Source: Flavobacteriales bacterium
GTDB taxonomy: Bacteria > Bacteroidota > Bacteroidia > CAIKAF01
NCBI GenBank assembly: GCA_025451235.1
Contig: JANWKT010000028.1
Location: 62,001 to 126,000 of the forward strand
Direction of reading: 5' to 3'
Length of the DNA: 64,000 nt
Shown: positions 3,289-48,943 of the stretch, one piece after another
Layout of the letters: each line of letters starts with the position of its first letter
How positions within the stretch are numbered: position 1 is the stretch's first letter
Notes under the pieces: model-generated
The model's input: only the letters and a program-made list of their open reading frames with translations
What the model was told of the DNA's origin: nothing
Databases searched by the model: none
Translations under genes and position numbers: made by a program

Positions 3289-3948
3289 TTATTTTACGAT
3301 ATACTTCAATACTACTATTACCGACTGATTAATGACCAGAATACTAAAAACAACTCCAATAATAATATCCAGCCAGAATCTAATGGCTTGCAATCTTTTG
3401 GCAATAAATTTACTGAGGATACCATAAGTGAAGAAAGCAAGAAAGGTTCCTACTGTTGTCCCAGCTACATAGATAAGAATAGATGGCCAGGTATCTTTCA
3501 ATAAACCTTCATCCTTTGTTTTGGTAGCTAGTACAATAAAAAACGGGATGGCAATGGGATTTAATAATCCAACGATCAGCCCTTTACCAAAACTGCCCAC
3601 CCTTTTCTTCGTTTCGATGGGTACAACATTATTTTTTTTGTTTTTATAGATCCTATATGCTTTTCTGAAATAATTGATCCCTAAAAATAAAAAAACAGGA
3701 ATGATCGCAATATTAATAGCAAATGCAAGCCTGGGTGACTCCAGGAAAAAGGCAGTAAATTTTGCTCCCAGAAAAGATTGGAGAAACTCCACAATACAGG
3801 CTGCCAAGGCAAGATAGATTCCATATTTTAAGCCCTTCTTTACAGTAGCATCCAGTACACTTAAATTAATAATGCCCGGAGGCAAAGAAAAAACATAACT
3901 CCACCACAACCCCCAAAGAAAGGACATTAAATAAAAATTCTCTATCAT
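3289..3948 (-). CDS. LysE family translocator
   Basis: A 219-residue inner membrane protein with about six hydrophobic segments. The family's N-terminal signature PPGIINLSVLDATVKKG lies at about residues 23-39, and the conserved LLNPIAIPFFIVLATK segment is in the middle. LysE/RhtB proteins export amino acids and similar small molecules; the substrate cannot be read from sequence. The start overlaps the stop of the upstream ATP-grasp gene by 4 nt, so the two are translationally coupled and may share a substrate class, which is inference. Confidence 0.88.
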   Translation of the reverse strand: MIENFYLMSFLWGLWWSYVFSLPPGIINLSVLDATVKKGLKYGIYLALAACIVEFLQSFLGAKFTAFFLESPRLAFAINIAIIPVFLFLGINYFRKAYRIYKNKKNNVVPIETKKRVGSFGKGLIVGLLNPIAIPFFIVLATKTKDEGLLKDTWPSILIYVAGTTVGTFLAFFTYGILSKFIAKRLQAIRFWLDIIIGVVFSILVINQSVIVVLKYIVK

Positions 3949-38458: not shown

Positions 38459-38473
38459 TGGCACCTGATTTGC
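38459..38473 (+). promoter_or_regulatory. Sigma-54 promoter of the caspase gene (TGGCAC-N5-TTGC)
   Basis: TGGCACCTGATTTGC has every conserved base of the sigma-54 consensus at the correct GG-N10-GC spacing. The predicted start is near 38485, giving a 35-nt leader before the ATG at 38520. Sigma-54 promoters need an activator ATPase; one is encoded 6.5 kb downstream. Confidence 0.8.
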
Positions 38474-41525: not shown

Positions 41526-41538
41526 TCTCAAAATGAGA
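41526..41538. promoter_or_regulatory. Putative activator site 1 (TCTCAAAATGAGA)
   Basis: A 13-bp palindrome with 5-bp arms. The same motif, with one changed central base at the third copy, is found at 41683-41695 and 46318-46330. The three flank the response regulator-kinase-activator genes, so it is most likely the binding site of the NtrC-type regulator. Confidence 0.65.
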
Positions 41539-41681: not shown

Positions 41682-41696
41682 TTCTCAAAATGAGAA
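41682..41696. promoter_or_regulatory. Putative activator site 2 (TTCTCAAAATGAGAA)
   Basis: Contains the 13-bp motif with one more paired base on each side. It lies 410 bp before the response regulator start and about 100 bp before the weak sigma-54-like sequences at 41779-41807. Confidence 0.65.
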
Positions 41697-42091
41697 AAAA
41701 GCTCAGCAAATGCCCCGGTTTTGAAAACCCAGGAAGCAGATAAAGTATTGTTTATCAGAATCATACATTTCCTAAAATCGGCTATTAGAATGCTGGCATA
41801 GCCTTGGAGAATACAAAATTCTGAATAACAGGGATACTTACTATTAAAAATTCTCGGTTTAGAATAATCAAGTGTTTTGCAATGAAGTGGCCGGCCTCTG
41901 ATGGTTAAAGAAGTGTCGAGCAACTCTCTTAGCAAAACAAGAATGACCCTAGGACCTAAGGACCGCAGATGAGGAATAGCCTATTGCCAATATAATAATT
42001 GTAAGGAATGGGAGGTAAAAAATTAGGCAGTGTTCAAATGTAGAGTGGCAAAAGGAGGGGGCCATTGCCCTTTCCTTTAAAACAGGGAATT

Positions 42092-42517
42092 ATGGAAACA
42101 AATAAAAAAATAGTAAAAATTGTGATTATAGAAGATAACGAGTTTTTCAATCAACTGTTAACGACAAGATTGAAAAACTATATTTATCCGATCGCTGATG
42201 ACCAACATTTTGAGCTTCAGGTAAACTCTTATACCAATTCAAAAGATGCTCTGCTTAACTTACCAGATGATACCGATATTGTTTTTCTTGACTATTATCT
42301 GGGAGACTCGATTACCGGAATTGAGGTGATGAAAAAAATAAAGAAGGCCTGCAATTCGTGTAATGTTATTATCATTTCTCAAGTAAAAAGTTTACAAACT
42401 TCTCTGGTAACTTTATTAGAGGGGGCCTCAGAATTTATTTTGAAAGACAAGAATGCTATTACCAAAAGCTGTTACGTGGCTGAAGAAATGATCTACAAAA
42501 GACTTAAATATATATAG
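42092..42517 (+). CDS. Single-domain response regulator
   Basis: About 141 residues, started at ATG 42092 (METNKKIVKIVIIEDNEFFN); the longer TTG frame adds nine residues. A complete receiver domain: acidic pocket IIEDNE, phosphorylation site LDYYLG (Asp67) and lysine in ILKDK near 113. No output domain follows. Its N-terminus (EDNEFFN) resembles the NtrC-type regulator's (EDNEWYN), so the two may be sister receivers for the same kinase, acting as a phosphate shuttle or sink. Followed by the hybrid kinase after 62 nt. Confidence 0.9.
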   Translation: METNKKIVKIVIIEDNEFFNQLLTTRLKNYIYPIADDQHFELQVNSYTNSKDALLNLPDDTDIVFLDYYLGDSITGIEVMKKIKKACNSCNVIIISQVKSLQTSLVTLLEGASEFILKDKNAITKSCYVAEEMIYKRLKYI

Positions 42518-42579: not shown

Positions 42580-44925
42580 ATGAAAAAAAGATTCTCATTA
42601 GAAGTAGGAATGCTTATTTTTATTTCCACCCTGGTGTTGATCGTTTCTATTTCGGGAATTATCACCTATCAGAATATAACTTCTTTGACCTTTGATCTAA
42701 AGAAAGGCACCACTCCGGATAATAAAGTAATCCTACTAAAACAAATCACCGCTGATTTGTATGAAACCGAGAGTAGTGTAAGGACTTTTTATTTTACCCG
42801 AGATTCGGCCTATTTGACTAACTATACCCCTTCTAAGAATTTAGTTGAGAACAGGATGACCGTTTTGGAAAGTTATCTTCAAAATGATCCGTTGAATAGA
42901 TCAAGGCTAGATTCTATCAGGTATTTTGTTCAGGAAAAATATCTGGTGATGGACGAATGGCTTGTACTGGAAAAGAATGAAAAAGTAACCAAGGAGCTGA
43001 GCAAACTTCCAGAAAAAATAGATTCCGAGGCGAAGAAGACAATCAATGATGACACGTCCGAAAAAATAAGGAAGAAAGATAAAAAAAATTATCTCGATGT
43101 TCAGCTATTGGAAAACGAGGTAAAAAAAATTCAACAACAACAAACCAGCCAGCTAAGAGCGCTTAACCAGCAGGAGCTGATGCTGAATATTAAAAACAAA
43201 GCCATCAACGATGCTTTAAGGAATATCGTTGCCCGGATGGAAAAAGAAGAAAAATCATCTCTTGCCGAGTTGAACGAAAATGCCATACAAAAAGCCAATA
43301 TCACCAACTTCATTATTGCCGCATTTTGCACATCTGCAGTTTTCCTTTTGGTGATCTTTGGTACCACTTTATTTAGATATATTGTTAAAACAAGGGAATA
43401 CAACCGGGCCTTAAAAAATGCCCACCTTGAAGCAGAAAATCTTGCAGAGGCCAAGCAGAACTTCTTGGCAAATATGACCCATGAGATCAGAACACCCATT
43501 AATTCGATCCTGGGATTTACCGAACAGCTTGATAAATCCTCCTTATCAAATCAACAAAGGGAGTATTTGCAAATAGTTAAAAAATCCTCCATACACTTGC
43601 TGAAAATAGTGAATGATGTATTGGATTATTCAAAACTACAGGCTGGGAAATTTTCGTTTGAGAAGATTATATTCAATCCTGCGGAGACCATTCAGGAAGT
43701 GATAGATATTTTATTACCCGAAGCGGAGGCCAAAAGTATCAAGGTCCACTTTCAAAAAAATGAAGGGATTCCTGATTTTTTGAGAGGAGACCCGTTTCGT
43801 TTACAACAGATTCTTTTGAATTTAATGGGCAATGCCATTAAATTTACCGGGTCCGGAAGTATTTTCGTTGTTGTAAATACAGAGAAAATGGAAGGAAATG
43901 AGCTTTTACTGAAGGTAGAGGTTCGGGATACAGGTATTGGTATTCCTGCTCATAAGGTAGATAAGGTATTCGGGGATTTCGAACAGGCAGATTCCAATAT
44001 TTCAAGAAAGTTCAGAGGTACAGGACTTGGCTTAAGTATTACAAAAAAGCTGGTGGAAAATCAGCAAGGAAGTATCCATATCATCAGTAAAGAAGGGGCG
44101 GGAACTGTGGTAAATTTTGTGATCCCCTATGAGGTGGTCAACAACCATCAGGAAACCGTTGTTTCAGACAAACGAATTGATTCCACCTTTTTAGCCGGCA
44201 AAAAAATTCTGATAGTGGATGATGAGCCTTTTAACCGAAAATTGCTCAGGACCATCTTGCTTCAATGGGGGGCCACTGTAGAGGAAGCCCACGATGGCGA
44301 AAATGCTTTGTTCTTAGTGAACAACAAACAATATGATTTGGTATTGATGGATGTTAGGATGCCTGGTATGACAGGTATTGAAATTACCCGCAGAATAAGA
44401 TCACATGAAAAGCCAGAGATAAGGAATCTCATCATCATAGCACTCACTGCCTCCAACGACAAAGAAAAAGAAATGAAATGCCTTGAGGCGGGAATGAATG
44501 CCTTTCTGCCGAAACCATTCACGGAACAGCAATTTTTTGAAGTGGTCAATAAAACTTTTTCGGGCTTACCTTCACCGCAACAAAATGATATTAGTATCAG
44601 CATGAACGAGCTATCTAAGTTGGCAAATGGTGATAAGAACTTCGTAAAGGAAATGGCGAGATTATTTATTAAGGGTGCAGAAGAAAGTGTTGAAACAATC
44701 AAGAAAGCATATGAAGTAGATGATTGGGGTACGATCAGGTCAGTTACCCATAAAGTGGCTCCTTCATGCAGGCACTTGGGGGCCACAAAAATGCTTGAAT
44801 TGGTAAAATTAATAGAAAAACAGGCAGAAAATGATGTAAGTAAAGCAGATTTGAATGTGCTCATCCACGAATTAGAGGTGGAGTCATCAGCGGCCATTGA
44901 TGAAGTAAAAAAATATTTGGTTTAA
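42580..44925 (+). CDS. Hybrid sensor histidine kinase with receiver and HPt domains
   Basis: A 781-residue membrane kinase. TM1 at about 8-30, a helical sensor region of about 210 residues (CHASE3-like), and TM2 at about 242-266. HisKA has His301 (NMTHEIRTPINS). HATPase motifs are NLMGNAIKF (N box), DTGIGIP (G1) and FRGTGLGLSI (G2). The receiver (about 541-660) has Asp591 (LMDVRMPGM) and Lys645. The C-terminal HPt has His724 (SVTHKVAPS). A good AGGAG ribosome site at 42569-42573 is unusual for the phylum. It likely passes phosphate to the regulator at 44944 through the HPt. Confidence 0.96.
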   Translation: MKKRFSLEVGMLIFISTLVLIVSISGIITYQNITSLTFDLKKGTTPDNKVILLKQITADLYETESSVRTFYFTRDSAYLTNYTPSKNLVENRMTVLESYLQNDPLNRSRLDSIRYFVQEKYLVMDEWLVLEKNEKVTKELSKLPEKIDSEAKKTINDDTSEKIRKKDKKNYLDVQLLENEVKKIQQQQTSQLRALNQQELMLNIKNKAINDALRNIVARMEKEEKSSLAELNENAIQKANITNFIIAAFCTSAVFLLVIFGTTLFRYIVKTREYNRALKNAHLEAENLAEAKQNFLANMTHEIRTPINSILGFTEQLDKSSLSNQQREYLQIVKKSSIHLLKIVNDVLDYSKLQAGKFSFEKIIFNPAETIQEVIDILLPEAEAKSIKVHFQKNEGIPDFLRGDPFRLQQILLNLMGNAIKFTGSGSIFVVVNTEKMEGNELLLKVEVRDTGIGIPAHKVDKVFGDFEQADSNISRKFRGTGLGLSITKKLVENQQGSIHIISKEGAGTVVNFVIPYEVVNNHQETVVSDKRIDSTFLAGKKILIVDDEPFNRKLLRTILLQWGATVEEAHDGENALFLVNNKQYDLVLMDVRMPGMTGIEITRRIRSHEKPEIRNLIIIALTASNDKEKEMKCLEAGMNAFLPKPFTEQQFFEVVNKTFSGLPSPQQNDISISMNELSKLANGDKNFVKEMARLFIKGAEESVETIKKAYEVDDWGTIRSVTHKVAPSCRHLGATKMLELVKLIEKQAENDVSKADLNVLIHELEVESSAAIDEVKKYLV

Positions 44926-44943: not shown

Positions 44944-46296
44944 ATGATATCAATTATGAACGAGAAGAACTTTAGTGTATTTATTGTAGAAGATAATGAA
45001 TGGTATAACAAATTTCTTGTACACCATTTATCACTCAATCCCGAATACGAAGTGAAAAGCTTCCTTTCAGGGAAAGAGCTTTTAAAGAGCATGCACTTGC
45101 TTCCGGATGTGATTACGTTGGATTATAGGTTGCCTGATTATGAAGGGACAAAACTGTTGAAAGAAATTAAAGGGCTTTCTCCGGAGACTGAAGTAATTGT
45201 GATTTCTGAACAAAATGAGATTGAGATCGCCATTGACCTTCTGAAAGGGGGGGCATATGATTATATTGTTAAAGCCGAAGATATTCGGGATAGGCTATTG
45301 AACCTTGTCCAAAATATCAGAAAGAATTATCAACTGCAGGAAAAAGTGAGCCATCTTGAAAAAGAGGTACAAAAAAAATATGATTTCCAGAAAACGGTCC
45401 TTGGTAATAGCAAAGGGATCCATAAGGTGCATGAGTTGATCGAAAAAAGCCTGTCAACCAGTATCAACATTATGCTCTCGGGAGAAACAGGAACCGGGAA
45501 AGAAATAGTGGCCAAGGCTATCCATTATAACTCCCCTAGAAAAGATAAACCGTTTGTTGCAGTAAATGTAACCGCACTGCCAGCTGATTTAATAGAAAGT
45601 GAATTATTTGGCCATGAGAAGGGTTCTTTCACAGGAGCCATGACCAGGCGGCTAGGAAAATTCGAAGAAGCTCATGGTGGTACCTTGTTCCTGGATGAAA
45701 TCGGGGAAATGGACATTGCCTTCCAGGCAAAATTACTAAGGGCCCTGCAGGAAAGAGAAATAACCAGGGTAGGAAGTAATACACCTGTAAAGATTGATTG
45801 CAGGGTTATTACGGCCACCAATAGAAATTTAATGGAGATGGTAAAGAATGGCAAGTTCAGGGAAGACCTTTACTACCGGTTAATAGGGCTCCCTATTGAG
45901 TTACCTCCTTTAAGGGACAGGGAAAAGGATATTCTTATTCTGGCCAAATTTTTTGTAGACGAGTTTTGTAAAGAAAACAAAATGGATACAAAAACATTTA
46001 CTGCGGATGCAAGGGATAAACTATTGTCTTATTCATTTCCAGGGAATATAAGAGAATTAAAGTCGTTGGTGGAACTGGCCGTGGTATTAAGCAGTACCAG
46101 CGAGATCAAGGCCGATGATATTTCCATCGCATCCTTTGATCCTTTGCCTGAAATGATGGCTGAAGAATTTACCATGCGACAATATGAGCTACGCATCCTC
46201 AAATCATATTTGGTAAAATATAATGACGATGTGAAAAAAGTGGCCGAAAAACTGGATATAAGTAGTGCCACTATTTACCGAATGTTAAAAGAGTAA
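44944..46296 (+). CDS. NtrC-type sigma-54-dependent response regulator
   Basis: A 450-residue activator. The receiver domain has Asp60 (TLDYRLPDYEG) and Lys110. The AAA+ domain has Walker A GETGTGKE (180-187), the sigma-54-contacting loop GSFTGA (227-232, the GAFTGA variant) and Walker B GGTLFLDEIGEM (245-256). A Fis-type helix-turn-helix ends the protein (VKKVAEKLDISSATIYRMLK). Such proteins remodel the closed complex of sigma-54 RNA polymerase. The start may be ATG 44944 or 44956 (MNEKNF). It lies 18 nt after the kinase gene. Its likely site is the palindrome at 41526, 41682 and 46312. Confidence 0.97.
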   Translation: MISIMNEKNFSVFIVEDNEWYNKFLVHHLSLNPEYEVKSFLSGKELLKSMHLLPDVITLDYRLPDYEGTKLLKEIKGLSPETEVIVISEQNEIEIAIDLLKGGAYDYIVKAEDIRDRLLNLVQNIRKNYQLQEKVSHLEKEVQKKYDFQKTVLGNSKGIHKVHELIEKSLSTSINIMLSGETGTGKEIVAKAIHYNSPRKDKPFVAVNVTALPADLIESELFGHEKGSFTGAMTRRLGKFEEAHGGTLFLDEIGEMDIAFQAKLLRALQEREITRVGSNTPVKIDCRVITATNRNLMEMVKNGKFREDLYYRLIGLPIELPPLRDREKDILILAKFFVDEFCKENKMDTKTFTADARDKLLSYSFPGNIRELKSLVELAVVLSSTSEIKADDISIASFDPLPEMMAEEFTMRQYELRILKSYLVKYNDDVKKVAEKLDISSATIYRMLKE

Positions 46297-46311
46297 ATAT
46301 CATTTTTAGAA

Positions 46312-46336
46312 TTTTTTTCTCAAATTGAGAAAAAAA
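46312..46336. promoter_or_regulatory. Putative activator site 3 (perfect 25-nt palindrome around TCTCAAATTGAGA)
   Basis: Twelve-bp arms (T7-CTCAA / TTGAG-A7) around one central A. The core is the same motif as at 41526 and 41682 with one changed central base. Its centre is 88 nt upstream of the predicted sigma-54 start at 46412, which is a usual distance for an activator site. Confidence 0.7.
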
Positions 46337-46355
46337 TGCACCCTCCGATTTCCTG

Positions 46356-46379
46356 AAAGCCCTGTAAACAGGGCTTTTT
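46356..46379 (+). terminator. Intrinsic terminator of the activator gene
   Basis: Stem AAAGCCCTG / CAGGGCTTT, loop TAAA, then TTTTT. It ends 7 nt before the next promoter, so the small downstream transcript is separate from the regulator operon. Confidence 0.85.
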
Positions 46380-46385
46380 AATTTA

Positions 46386-46400
46386 TGGCACAAGCATTGT
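46386..46400 (+). promoter_or_regulatory. Near-consensus sigma-54 promoter (TGGCAC-N5-TTGT)
   Basis: TGGCACAAGCATTGT matches TGGCAC-N5-TTGC at every position except the final C. It lies between the activator terminator and the predicted transcript at 46412. The third palindrome is just upstream. Confidence 0.72.
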
Positions 46401-46420
46401 TCCTCATAAATTGTTGATAG

Positions 46421-46507
46421 ATGGCAGAAGCAAAATTATCTGCAAGTACCCAAGTGGTATTTCAGTCTATATATCATCCCGTTCTTACACTCTGTATAGT
46501 GGTTTAG
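46421..46507 (+). CDS. Possible 28-residue peptide within the small transcript
   Basis: ATG GCA GAA to TAG, reading MAEAKLSASTQVVFQSIYHP and then VLTLCIVV. The C-terminal half is hydrophobic. The start would be only 9 nt from the predicted RNA 5' end, with no ribosome site, so the ORF may be accidental. Confidence 0.25.
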   Translation: MAEAKLSASTQVVFQSIYHPVLTLCIVV

Positions 46508-46510
46508 TGA

Positions 46511-46547
46511 AAAGAGAGTTCGAGTATGACGAACTCTCTTTTTTTTT
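46511..46547 (+). terminator. Strong intrinsic terminator of the small transcript
   Basis: A 10-bp perfect stem AGAGAGTTCG / CGAACTCTCT, 7-nt loop, then nine T residues. It also gives a weaker terminator for the minus-strand receptor gene that ends at 46605. Confidence 0.9.
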
Positions 46548-46604
46548 GAATAGAGCCCAGAGCTTGTATAAGAAGCCCCCTTTATAGACAGAAGAATTTA
46601 TCCC

Positions 46605-48908
46605 TTATTTCTTGGTTTTATACAACGTAAACCGGATCCCCAAAAAGCCTCTTATGCCCTGGTTAGGTGCAAAAACATAGGAAGGATCAAAGGTGAGGGC
46701 ATTGGGGTTATTAGGTGTAGCCACCACTTGGCCCTGTGCATCAAAGACTACGTCCTTATCAAAGGGGTCAAACGGACGGGCAATACTGTTAGCAGGTGGT
46801 GTAAAGTTCAGCAAGTTTTTAACTCCTCCATATATTTCGATCCCGTTTTTGAATTTTTTGGTGATTTGTATATTCTGGATACTAAAGAAAGGTGATATGT
46901 CGGGCCGGTCATCCAATGGGCCTAATACCGGGAGCCGCATAGGTCCATACAAGTTGCCCGTATAGTCAATAGAAAGACCAATCTTTTCGAAAGAATAGCC
47001 TACATTCCAAACCCCGGTAAACTGCTCGGTTAGCATTTGTCTTTCCCAGGTGCCATTTTCGTGAATGGAAACATCCATGGCTGTTGCTCCAACCAATACT
47101 TTTAGATTTTTCCATACAATGTCAAGATTAATAGACCCTCCGGTGGATTGAGCAAAACCATTTAGGTTGCGGTAAATGATCTTGTTCGGATCTGTTTCAT
47201 AATCAGGAATGATCCTATTAGAAAAATAAGTATACCAGCCTGAAACATCTATTCCTATAATGACTGCACTTTTTGTATAGATCTTTTTCACAAAATTAAT
47301 ATTGCCATTCCACGAAGTTTCGGGTGAAAGTTTTTCAGCAAAAACCACTTCCCTCGCTCCTGTCAGCGCAGCATGATCTTCTGTAAATACATTGGCTACC
47401 CGATAACCATTTCCAGCTCCTATTCTCAGAACATTTCTTTTGTTGGCCGAACTCCATTTATAATTAATACGGGGGCAAAATATGCTTCCATGTAATGTAT
47501 TATAATCATACCGTACACCCAACAAAAGTTTATGCTTCTCATTAAACGTTATTTCATCCTGAACAAATATCCCTGGAAGATGTGTAATCGAAGGTTGATT
47601 TGCCGGAATATTGATGGTATCAAATTCGGCTGTTGCGGATGTATTGTCATCGTAATAAATAAACCTATAAGTAACTCCCAACAATATATCATTTATCCTG
47701 CCTATTTTTTTATTCCAAGTAAATTGACCAAAAGCAATATATTGATCGGCTATATAAGATACTTTGCCATATACAGAATTTTGATAATGCCCATTCGCAC
47801 TAAATTGAAAGTTGATATTTTCTTTCACAGGCAACTGGTAAGTTCCAAAAGCTTCCCACCGGGTTGTATAAATACTTTCTGCATAAATACTGTCACCCCC
47901 TCTGAATGCCGGTGTCCAATTCATATCACCACCCCATCGGTCCTCGTATACAAATCGGCCTGCCAAAGTAAAGACCCTATTGTCTTTTCGATCTAAGCTC
48001 CATTTATTGAATAAGGATACCCGATTCTGTAAAGTTATATCCGTAAATCCATCCTGATTGTTATCGATGGGCACTTGATAGTTGTAATAGTTAAGACCTA
48101 TAATAGAATGAACCTTTTTCCCGAGTTTAAATTTGAATCCAAAGTCAGAATTGATCTCACCCCAGGTTGTCGCGAAGACATCGGCTGAGATCACAGGAGC
48201 ATTTGCCGGTTTTTTTGTAATGATATTAATGAGCCCCCCCACTGCTTCTGAACCGTATAGGGTAGAAGCAGGTCCTTTTACTATTTCCATTCTTTCAATC
48301 AATGATTGAGGAATACCAGTTAAACCATATACAGTTGAAAGACCACTTACGATCGGCATTCCATCAATTAATACCATCGTATATGGGCCTTCAAGCCCAT
48401 TCATATGTATATCTCCTGTGTTGCATACATTACAGTTAAGCTGCGGCCTTACCCCATTTACATTTTGCAGGCATTCAAAAAGTGAAGGGGTAGGATTGGC
48501 TTTAAAAAATTTGGCGGTATATACTTCTACATTAACAGCGCTTTCCATTTTACTTACCTCCTTCATAGTCCCGGAAATGACTGCCTCATTAAGATCAGTG
48601 GCGGATTGTACCATGGATAGGTCCAGAGTAATGTGAGGTTGAGGGTTAGTTATAGATATTTTTTGAGTTTGGGTTTGATATCCCATCATAACCACCTGCA
48701 CATCATAGTCCCCAAATGGAATGTTTTTGATTTCATAGTACCCGGAAGAGTTAGTAACAGCTCCCAAATTGATTTTTTGAATAATTACGTTGGCAAATTC
48801 CAACGGCAAACTATCGTTTTTTATATGACCCGATATAATGCCTGTTTGTGCATGAAGGGAACCAATGAAGAAGATGAACAAACCTATTATGGAACCACTG
48901 CGTAACAT
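46605..48908 (-). CDS. TonB-dependent receptor with carboxypeptidase-like N-domain
   Basis: A 767-residue outer membrane receptor with signal peptide (about 1-20). A carboxypeptidase-regulatory-like domain covers about 22-105. The plug follows (about 120-235), with the cysteine pair QLNCNVCNTGD, MVLIDGMPIVSG, IEIVKGPASTLYGSEAVGG and INIITKKP. The barrel ends in IRFTLYKTKK. The Cys-X2-Cys loop in the plug is shared by a Bacteroidota subgroup of TonB receptors; metal or metal-chelate uptake is a fair guess, but the substrate is not known. A full promoter is at 48944-48973. Confidence 0.92.
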   Translation of the reverse strand: MLRSGSIIGLFIFFIGSLHAQTGIISGHIKNDSLPLEFANVIIQKINLGAVTNSSGYYEIKNIPFGDYDVQVVMMGYQTQTQKISITNPQPHITLDLSMVQSATDLNEAVISGTMKEVSKMESAVNVEVYTAKFFKANPTPSLFECLQNVNGVRPQLNCNVCNTGDIHMNGLEGPYTMVLIDGMPIVSGLSTVYGLTGIPQSLIERMEIVKGPASTLYGSEAVGGLINIITKKPANAPVISADVFATTWGEINSDFGFKFKLGKKVHSIIGLNYYNYQVPIDNNQDGFTDITLQNRVSLFNKWSLDRKDNRVFTLAGRFVYEDRWGGDMNWTPAFRGGDSIYAESIYTTRWEAFGTYQLPVKENINFQFSANGHYQNSVYGKVSYIADQYIAFGQFTWNKKIGRINDILLGVTYRFIYYDDNTSATAEFDTINIPANQPSITHLPGIFVQDEITFNEKHKLLLGVRYDYNTLHGSIFCPRINYKWSSANKRNVLRIGAGNGYRVANVFTEDHAALTGAREVVFAEKLSPETSWNGNINFVKKIYTKSAVIIGIDVSGWYTYFSNRIIPDYETDPNKIIYRNLNGFAQSTGGSINLDIVWKNLKVLVGATAMDVSIHENGTWERQMLTEQFTGVWNVGYSFEKIGLSIDYTGNLYGPMRLPVLGPLDDRPDISPFFSIQNIQITKKFKNGIEIYGGVKNLLNFTPPANSIARPFDPFDKDVVFDAQGQVVATPNNPNALTFDPSYVFAPNQGIRGFLGIRFTLYKTKK

Positions 48909-48943
48909 GTGCTTTTTTAGCTGACCTGGAATTAATATTTAGC

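Follow-up and report, generated by a model that had tools for sequence, protein, structure and literature searches.

Organization of the locus

The window, a stretch of 64,000 nt, comes from a genome that is 98% complete (G000) and belongs to an uncultured lineage of Bacteroidota. It contains a two-component operon in the order stand-alone receiver, CHASE3 hybrid kinase and NtrC-type activator, followed by a predicted small RNA gene (Table 1). The activator has the features of a group I bEBP, namely a PF00072 receiver, a PF00158 domain (6.7e-70) and GSFTGA for the GAFTGA-type loop; its helix-turn-helix gives a weak Pfam match to HTH_22, under the cut-off. NtrC-family activators act solely on one special promoter class, that of sigma-54, and sRNAs with a sigma-54 promoter and an NtrC-type activator are well known in Proteobacteria. 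There is one rpoN gene in G000 and one in the comparison genome, G001, the one other genome of the genus available for comparison (a Flavobacteriales MAG; contig JANWKQ010000108.1 at the RNA locus), whose activator is 82% identical.

A sequence-only reading of the window had pointed to a palindrome, a terminator for the activator gene, TGGCAC-N5-TTGT and a second terminator, and had taken them to specify a sigma-54-dependent small RNA or a 28-residue peptide. All four elements lie at the positions given by that reading. The two terminators fall within a 400-bp region, as compared with 0.2 in shuffled sequences.

Table 1. Features of the two-component operon and of the adjoining RNA locus (positions in the window)
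Feature	Position	Strand	Basis or remark
Additional palindrome resembling the activator site, TCTCAAAATGAGA	41526..41538		absent from the matching G001 region
Putative activator-site palindrome upstream of the two-component operon, TCTCAAAATGAGA	41683..41695		kept in G001 contig C122 as TCTCATTTTGAGA
Putative -24/-12 promoter of the two-component operon, TGGCATAGCCTTGGA	41794..41808	+	non-canonical -12; conserved TGGCATAGCSTTGG
Stand-alone response regulator receiver gene	42092..42517	+	PF00072; ATG at 42092 chosen by orthology with G001
CHASE3 hybrid histidine kinase, receiver and Hpt domains	42580..44925	+	domain matches
NtrC-family activator: receiver, AAA+ (GSFTGA), C-terminal helix-turn-helix	44944..46296	+	domain matches
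Palindrome TTTTTTTCTCAAATTGAGAAAAAAA, likely upstream activating site	46312..46336 (core 46318-46330)		sequence; recurrence at other loci
Intrinsic terminator of the activator operon, stem AAAGCCCTGTAAACAGGGCTTT and T-run	46356..46379	+	between palindrome and promoter; terminator scan
Sigma-54-type -24/-12 promoter TGGCACAAGCATTGT	46386..46400	+	TGGCAC-N5-TTGT match
Predicted small RNA, about 136 nt	46412..46547	+	start inferred from promoter
Stem-loop, 7-bp stem and 5-nt loop	46444..46462	+	three compensatory changes in G001
Conserved single-stranded UAUAUAUCAUCYCGUUCUUR, candidate pairing region	46467..46486	+	conserved in G001; predicted fold
Small conserved hairpin CACU...AGUG	46488..46501	+	predicted fold in both species
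Intrinsic terminator of the small RNA, AAAGAGAGTTCGAGTATGACGAACTCTCTTTTTTTTT	46511..46547	+	terminator scan

Conservation in a second genome of the genus

In G001, the activator stop codon is likewise followed by the palindrome, a terminator, TGGCATATCCATTGA and the RNA with its own terminator. The palindrome lies 68 bp from the promoter in both genomes. This is slightly nearer than the 80-150 bp expected of an activator site in the sequence-only reading, but the spacing is exactly conserved. The terminator hairpin of the activator operon is kept with a changed stem sequence. The gene after the RNA differs between the genomes, the TonB-receptor stretch of the window (~46548-48938) being replaced in G001, and synteny resumes at about 49016. 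The persistence of promoter, spacing, terminator and RNA module despite a different next gene supports the proposal of a sigma-54-dependent sRNA, as far as sequence comparison can.

Between the two activator genes, fourfold-degenerate sites are 43% identical and third positions 49%. The 52-nt 3' module of the RNA is identical at 46/52 positions (88.5%; binomial P ~8e-12 at the fourfold rate), the 5' half at 48%, and the stretch past the RNA terminator at 6/16. The 88.5% identity of the 3' module, set against 43% at fourfold-degenerate sites, indicates that selection acts on this part of the RNA.

G000 and G001 were the only two of 395 class genomes in which the RNA was detected. BLAST-type and covariance-model searches of these 395 genomes for homologues outside the genus returned weak matches only; the three best of them were inspected and are carried by the terminator stem. 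No homologue was found at the loci around other activator orthologues, nor any paralogous copy.

It could be argued that the stem at 46511-46547 just terminates transcription in both directions, in the service of the convergent gene on the minus strand, the -24/-12 match being fortuitous. Indeed, both genomes have a convergent gene downstream, and a short T-run is present in the minus direction too. However, the plus direction has by far the longer T-run, and the convergent genes are different ones in the two genomes. Moreover, conservation extends over about 45 bases upstream of the stem, more than a terminator requires, and the palindrome-promoter spacing is exactly conserved, all of which makes this explanation improbable.

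Structure and coding potential of the RNA

The predicted RNA is about 136 nt long here and about 159 nt in the G001 species. The order of parts is common to both folds. After a 5' end that varies come the 7-bp stem and its 5-nt loop, the single-stranded stretch listed in Table 1 and the CACU/AGUG hairpin, which a linker separates from the terminator stem. In both species the RNA folds better than its shuffles (z -2.4 and -2.2). All 7/7 pairs of the stem at 46444-46462 are kept in G001, three of them through changes in both bases and two through a change in one. Shuffles reach this in 66/500 cases, and slid pairings keep just 37-54% of their pairs. Because two sequences only are compared, the covariation is suggestive, not conclusive. 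Of the marks of conservation named in the sequence-only reading, the promoter-terminator pair after the activator and the stem covariation are seen in G001, and codon conservation is not.

The suggested 28-residue peptide would be translated from an ATG ORF of 28 codons that begins at 46421, after the predicted start, so that the transcript would be a small mRNA. A 38-codon ORF behind a palindrome and TGGCAT in G001 (L291, see below) gives some room to this proposal, since the regulon may include small proteins. Yet the matching frame in G001 has no start codon and its stops are 15 codons apart. The aligned region contains a 20-base insertion and a 2-base indel, and conservation resides in the 3' stem-loops and the linker, not at the ORF start. 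A peptide product is therefore highly improbable. The ORF, with no counterpart in G001 and no conservation of its frame, was rejected as the product.

A non-coding RNA is the best fit, given that the 28-residue ORF lacks conservation. At the level of sequence, the locus is that of an sRNA: non-coding, with its own terminator and with a conserved promoter and activator site. The window holds no Rfam match at the gathering score, and at E up to 10 the region 46250-46650 gives chance-level matches only. None of these is CrcZ, NrsZ, Qrr or GlmY/GlmZ, names that are perhaps not all modelled in Rfam. Hfq (PF17209) was not found in G000 (98% complete) or in G001.

The predicted promoter and the probable activator site

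The sigma-54 consensus is GG-N10-GC within TGGCAC-N5-TTGC. The -24 half of the RNA promoter is perfect here, whereas at -12, where TTGC is canonical, G000 has TTGT and G001 has TTGA; the G001 promoter, TGGCATATCCATTGA, has TGGCAT at -24. Palindrome-linked promoters, those of the RNA and of the lipoprotein genes described below, have TTGA or TTGT at -12, the lipoprotein promoters sharing TTGA. No primary promoter of the TAnnTTTG type (at least 5/6) was found around the RNA start in G000. TGGCAC-N5-TTG occurs 36 times in the genome and 12 times in the reversed control, an approximately threefold enrichment, so that the promoter motif alone is modest evidence. It is the combination of elements that lifts the locus above chance.

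The palindrome is very probably the binding site of the adjacent activator, since it recurs after activator orthologues and before -24/-12 promoters in the genus. Across Bacteroidota, 33/93 distinct regions carry it (at least 11/13 match, within 300 bp downstream of an activator orthologue), as compared with 3.1 for shuffles (maximum 7) and 1 for the reversed motif. Of those TGGCAC-N5-TTG sites in G000 and G001 that were examined, a palindrome of at least 12/13 preceded only the ones of the RNA gene, of a DUF4382 lipoprotein gene in both genomes and of a small lipoprotein pair in G000. The corresponding spacings are 68/68, 113/116 and 113 bp. The DUF4382 gene (L159, L150) is preceded by the palindrome and TGGCAC-N5-TTGA in both genomes, while the pair (L062 1506-2464) consists of two tandem genes, one weakly Lipocalin_4-like, behind the palindrome and TGGCACCATGATTGA. 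Palindrome-plus-TGGCAY pairs number 4 in G000, 4 in G001 and 0 in their controls, and the reversed control gives 4 in total in all 395 class genomes. One of the four G000 matches lies inside the activator gene on the opposite strand, and because some matches look coincidental these counts are support, not proof. The likely assignment of the palindrome to the activator strengthens the sRNA proposal.

Several related activators are encoded in the genome, with 15 matches to the activator sequence at E<=0.001, and palindrome and promoter might serve one of these instead. This is very improbable, given that, across Bacteroidota, the regions following orthologues of the adjacent activator are enriched in the palindrome and that the C-terminal recognition helices of these orthologues are alike, their recognition-helix region being conserved.

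Upstream of the receiver-kinase-activator operon, the palindrome and TGGCATAGCSTTGG are 111/112 bp apart in the two genomes (window 41683-41808; L160 1501-1626 in the comparison). As both are kept in an intergenic region that is otherwise unalignable between the genomes, autoregulation is suggested. The operon is likely to be autoregulated via its putative promoter with a non-canonical -12.

Other promoter-like sites were noted in the two genomes. At L291 (G001 contig C40, ~3328-3700), a palindrome with a TGGCAT site 69 bp downstream is followed by the 38-codon ORF, whose product is small and hydrophobic (MKTFFLIESELVGQITIVALGILYAGALVTNVFLNLAW), and by a hairpin that resembles a terminator. 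The sequence TGGCACAAAAATTGCACCAAAAA, which looks like a canonical sigma-54 promoter but has no palindrome, is conserved in both genomes ahead of a gene that begins with MLKDLYQSALFPSEIKAML (L170, L181) and probably belongs to the regulon of another activator. At window position 38459, TGGCACCTGATTTGC lies upstream of a secreted-protein ORF (MKSKLSIALLLTLVFF...) and is kept in G001 (L197).

The gene slot after the activator

Behind the activator orthologues of other Bacteroidota, this slot is often occupied by an envelope-protein gene. In six loci (L010, L079, L080, L086, L090, L108) the product belongs to a family of outer-membrane-like proteins, and Pfam gives no match for two of its members. 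DUF4382 genes directly follow the activator in L087 and L112. Coiled-coil protein genes do so in L098, L100, L102, L106, L109, L110, L077, L083, L092 and L093, and most of these loci carry the palindrome; the one coiled-coil protein tested, that of L098, matches NCBIfam Cbp1_fam_LP (7e-60). Elsewhere the slot holds a receiver gene, which may begin another two-component set. In both genomes of the window's genus, it is taken by the RNA gene.

Proposed mechanism

From the architecture of the locus, its conservation, the stem covariation and the recurrence of the palindrome beside activator orthologues, a stand-alone non-coding sRNA gene, driven by the palindrome-bound activator and sigma-54 and most likely acting in trans by base pairing, emerges as the probable reading. 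The phosphorylated response regulator encoded just upstream would bind the palindrome and remodel the sigma-54 RNA polymerase 68 bp downstream, at TGGCAC-N5-TTGT. Transcription would start near 46412 and stop at the hairpin 46511-46547, while the hairpin 46356-46379 would shield the RNA gene from read-through out of the activator operon. By way of further copies of the palindrome, the activator would also drive the DUF4382 lipoprotein gene and probably its own operon.

Once made, the RNA would most likely pair in trans through its conserved single-stranded 3' stretch and thus form a post-transcriptional arm of the two-component system, probably directed at envelope genes. Such targets are proposed because of the nature of the rest of the regulon. 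Neither a search for complements of the conserved stretch in both genomes, in which the best-matching loci were inspected, nor duplex energies against the start regions of genes in the regulon and in the window revealed a conserved target above background. An RNA that is real and activator-driven might instead bind a protein, by titration as CrcZ does with Hfq/Crc. CrcZ, the closest arrangement, does titrate a protein (PMC8395346), the structured 3' module is conserved, and the target searches yielded no mRNA. However, no repeated protein-binding motif was recognised in the RNA, nor was Hfq found in G000 or G001, and protein binding is considered unlikely.

Base pairing by an activator-driven sRNA remains the preferred reading. 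An even chance is given to the broader view that this is the first sRNA activated by sigma-54 and an NtrC-family regulator in Bacteroidota, apparently working without Hfq. In that broader view, the sRNA would count among the outputs of an envelope two-component system that spans the phylum and uses a common operator, TCTCAAAWTGAGA, the slot beside the activator, often that of an envelope-protein gene, having been turned into a riboregulator. No sigma-54-dependent sRNA was found described for Bacteroidota in the open-access literature, in agreement with the sequence-only reading, which knew of none. Regulatory RNAs of this phylum are little understood and seemingly Hfq-independent. The locus lends itself to testing, its activator, operator, promoter and RNA ends all being specified by prediction. 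Knowing the operator should also help to trace the regulon of this activator family, which is found widely in the phylum beside envelope genes and is otherwise uncharacterised.

Comparison with known systems

The Qrr RNAs of Vibrio are short sigma-54-driven sRNAs under the NtrC-family regulator LuxO and depend on Hfq. Here, the RNA matches no Rfam family, Hfq was not detected and paralogous copies were not found. GlmY is reported to be controlled by the QseE-QseF two-component sigma-54 activator, which binds upstream activating sequences, and is linked to the envelope (PMC6075780). To that extent, GlmY/GlmZ resemble the present locus, as interpreted here, in having a two-component sigma-54 activator, upstream activating sites and an envelope link, but the RNA here is of another family, without an Rfam match. 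The analogies drawn earlier to GlmY/GlmZ and Qrr are thus apt, although CrcZ and NrsZ, encoded immediately behind cbrB and ntrC, are nearer in arrangement. In Flavobacterium psychrophilum, a member of the same phylum, sigma-54 (SM4) promoters and Rfp sRNAs have both been mapped; the available text of that study lists Rfp11 under SM6 and no sRNA under the sigma-54 motif (PMC9723704).

NrsZ is encoded in the ntrC-PA5126 intergenic region of Pseudomonas aeruginosa and driven by NtrC and RpoN (PMC8395346). Like the RNA described here, it follows the gene of its regulator, and it is a base-pairing regulator. Unlike it, NrsZ is ~226 nt long, processed and responsive to nitrogen through NtrB-NtrC, whereas the partner kinase here is a CHASE3 hybrid. 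In Pseudomonas, the gene of CrcZ lies between cbrB and pcnB and is RpoN-dependent and CbrB-activated (PMC8395346). It shares with the present locus an sRNA gene directly after that of its NtrC-type regulator (CbrB, of the CbrA-CbrB pair) and an RpoN promoter, here predicted. CrcZ, however, is a 407-nt decoy of Hfq/Crc, while the RNA here is ~136 nt, has no Rfam match and comes from another phylum in which, in the two genomes of this genus, Hfq was not detected. Moreover, CbrB is without palindromic sites (PMC6296734), in contrast to the single near-perfect palindrome found here. Matching no Rfam family, the locus is nonetheless arranged like that of CrcZ or NrsZ.
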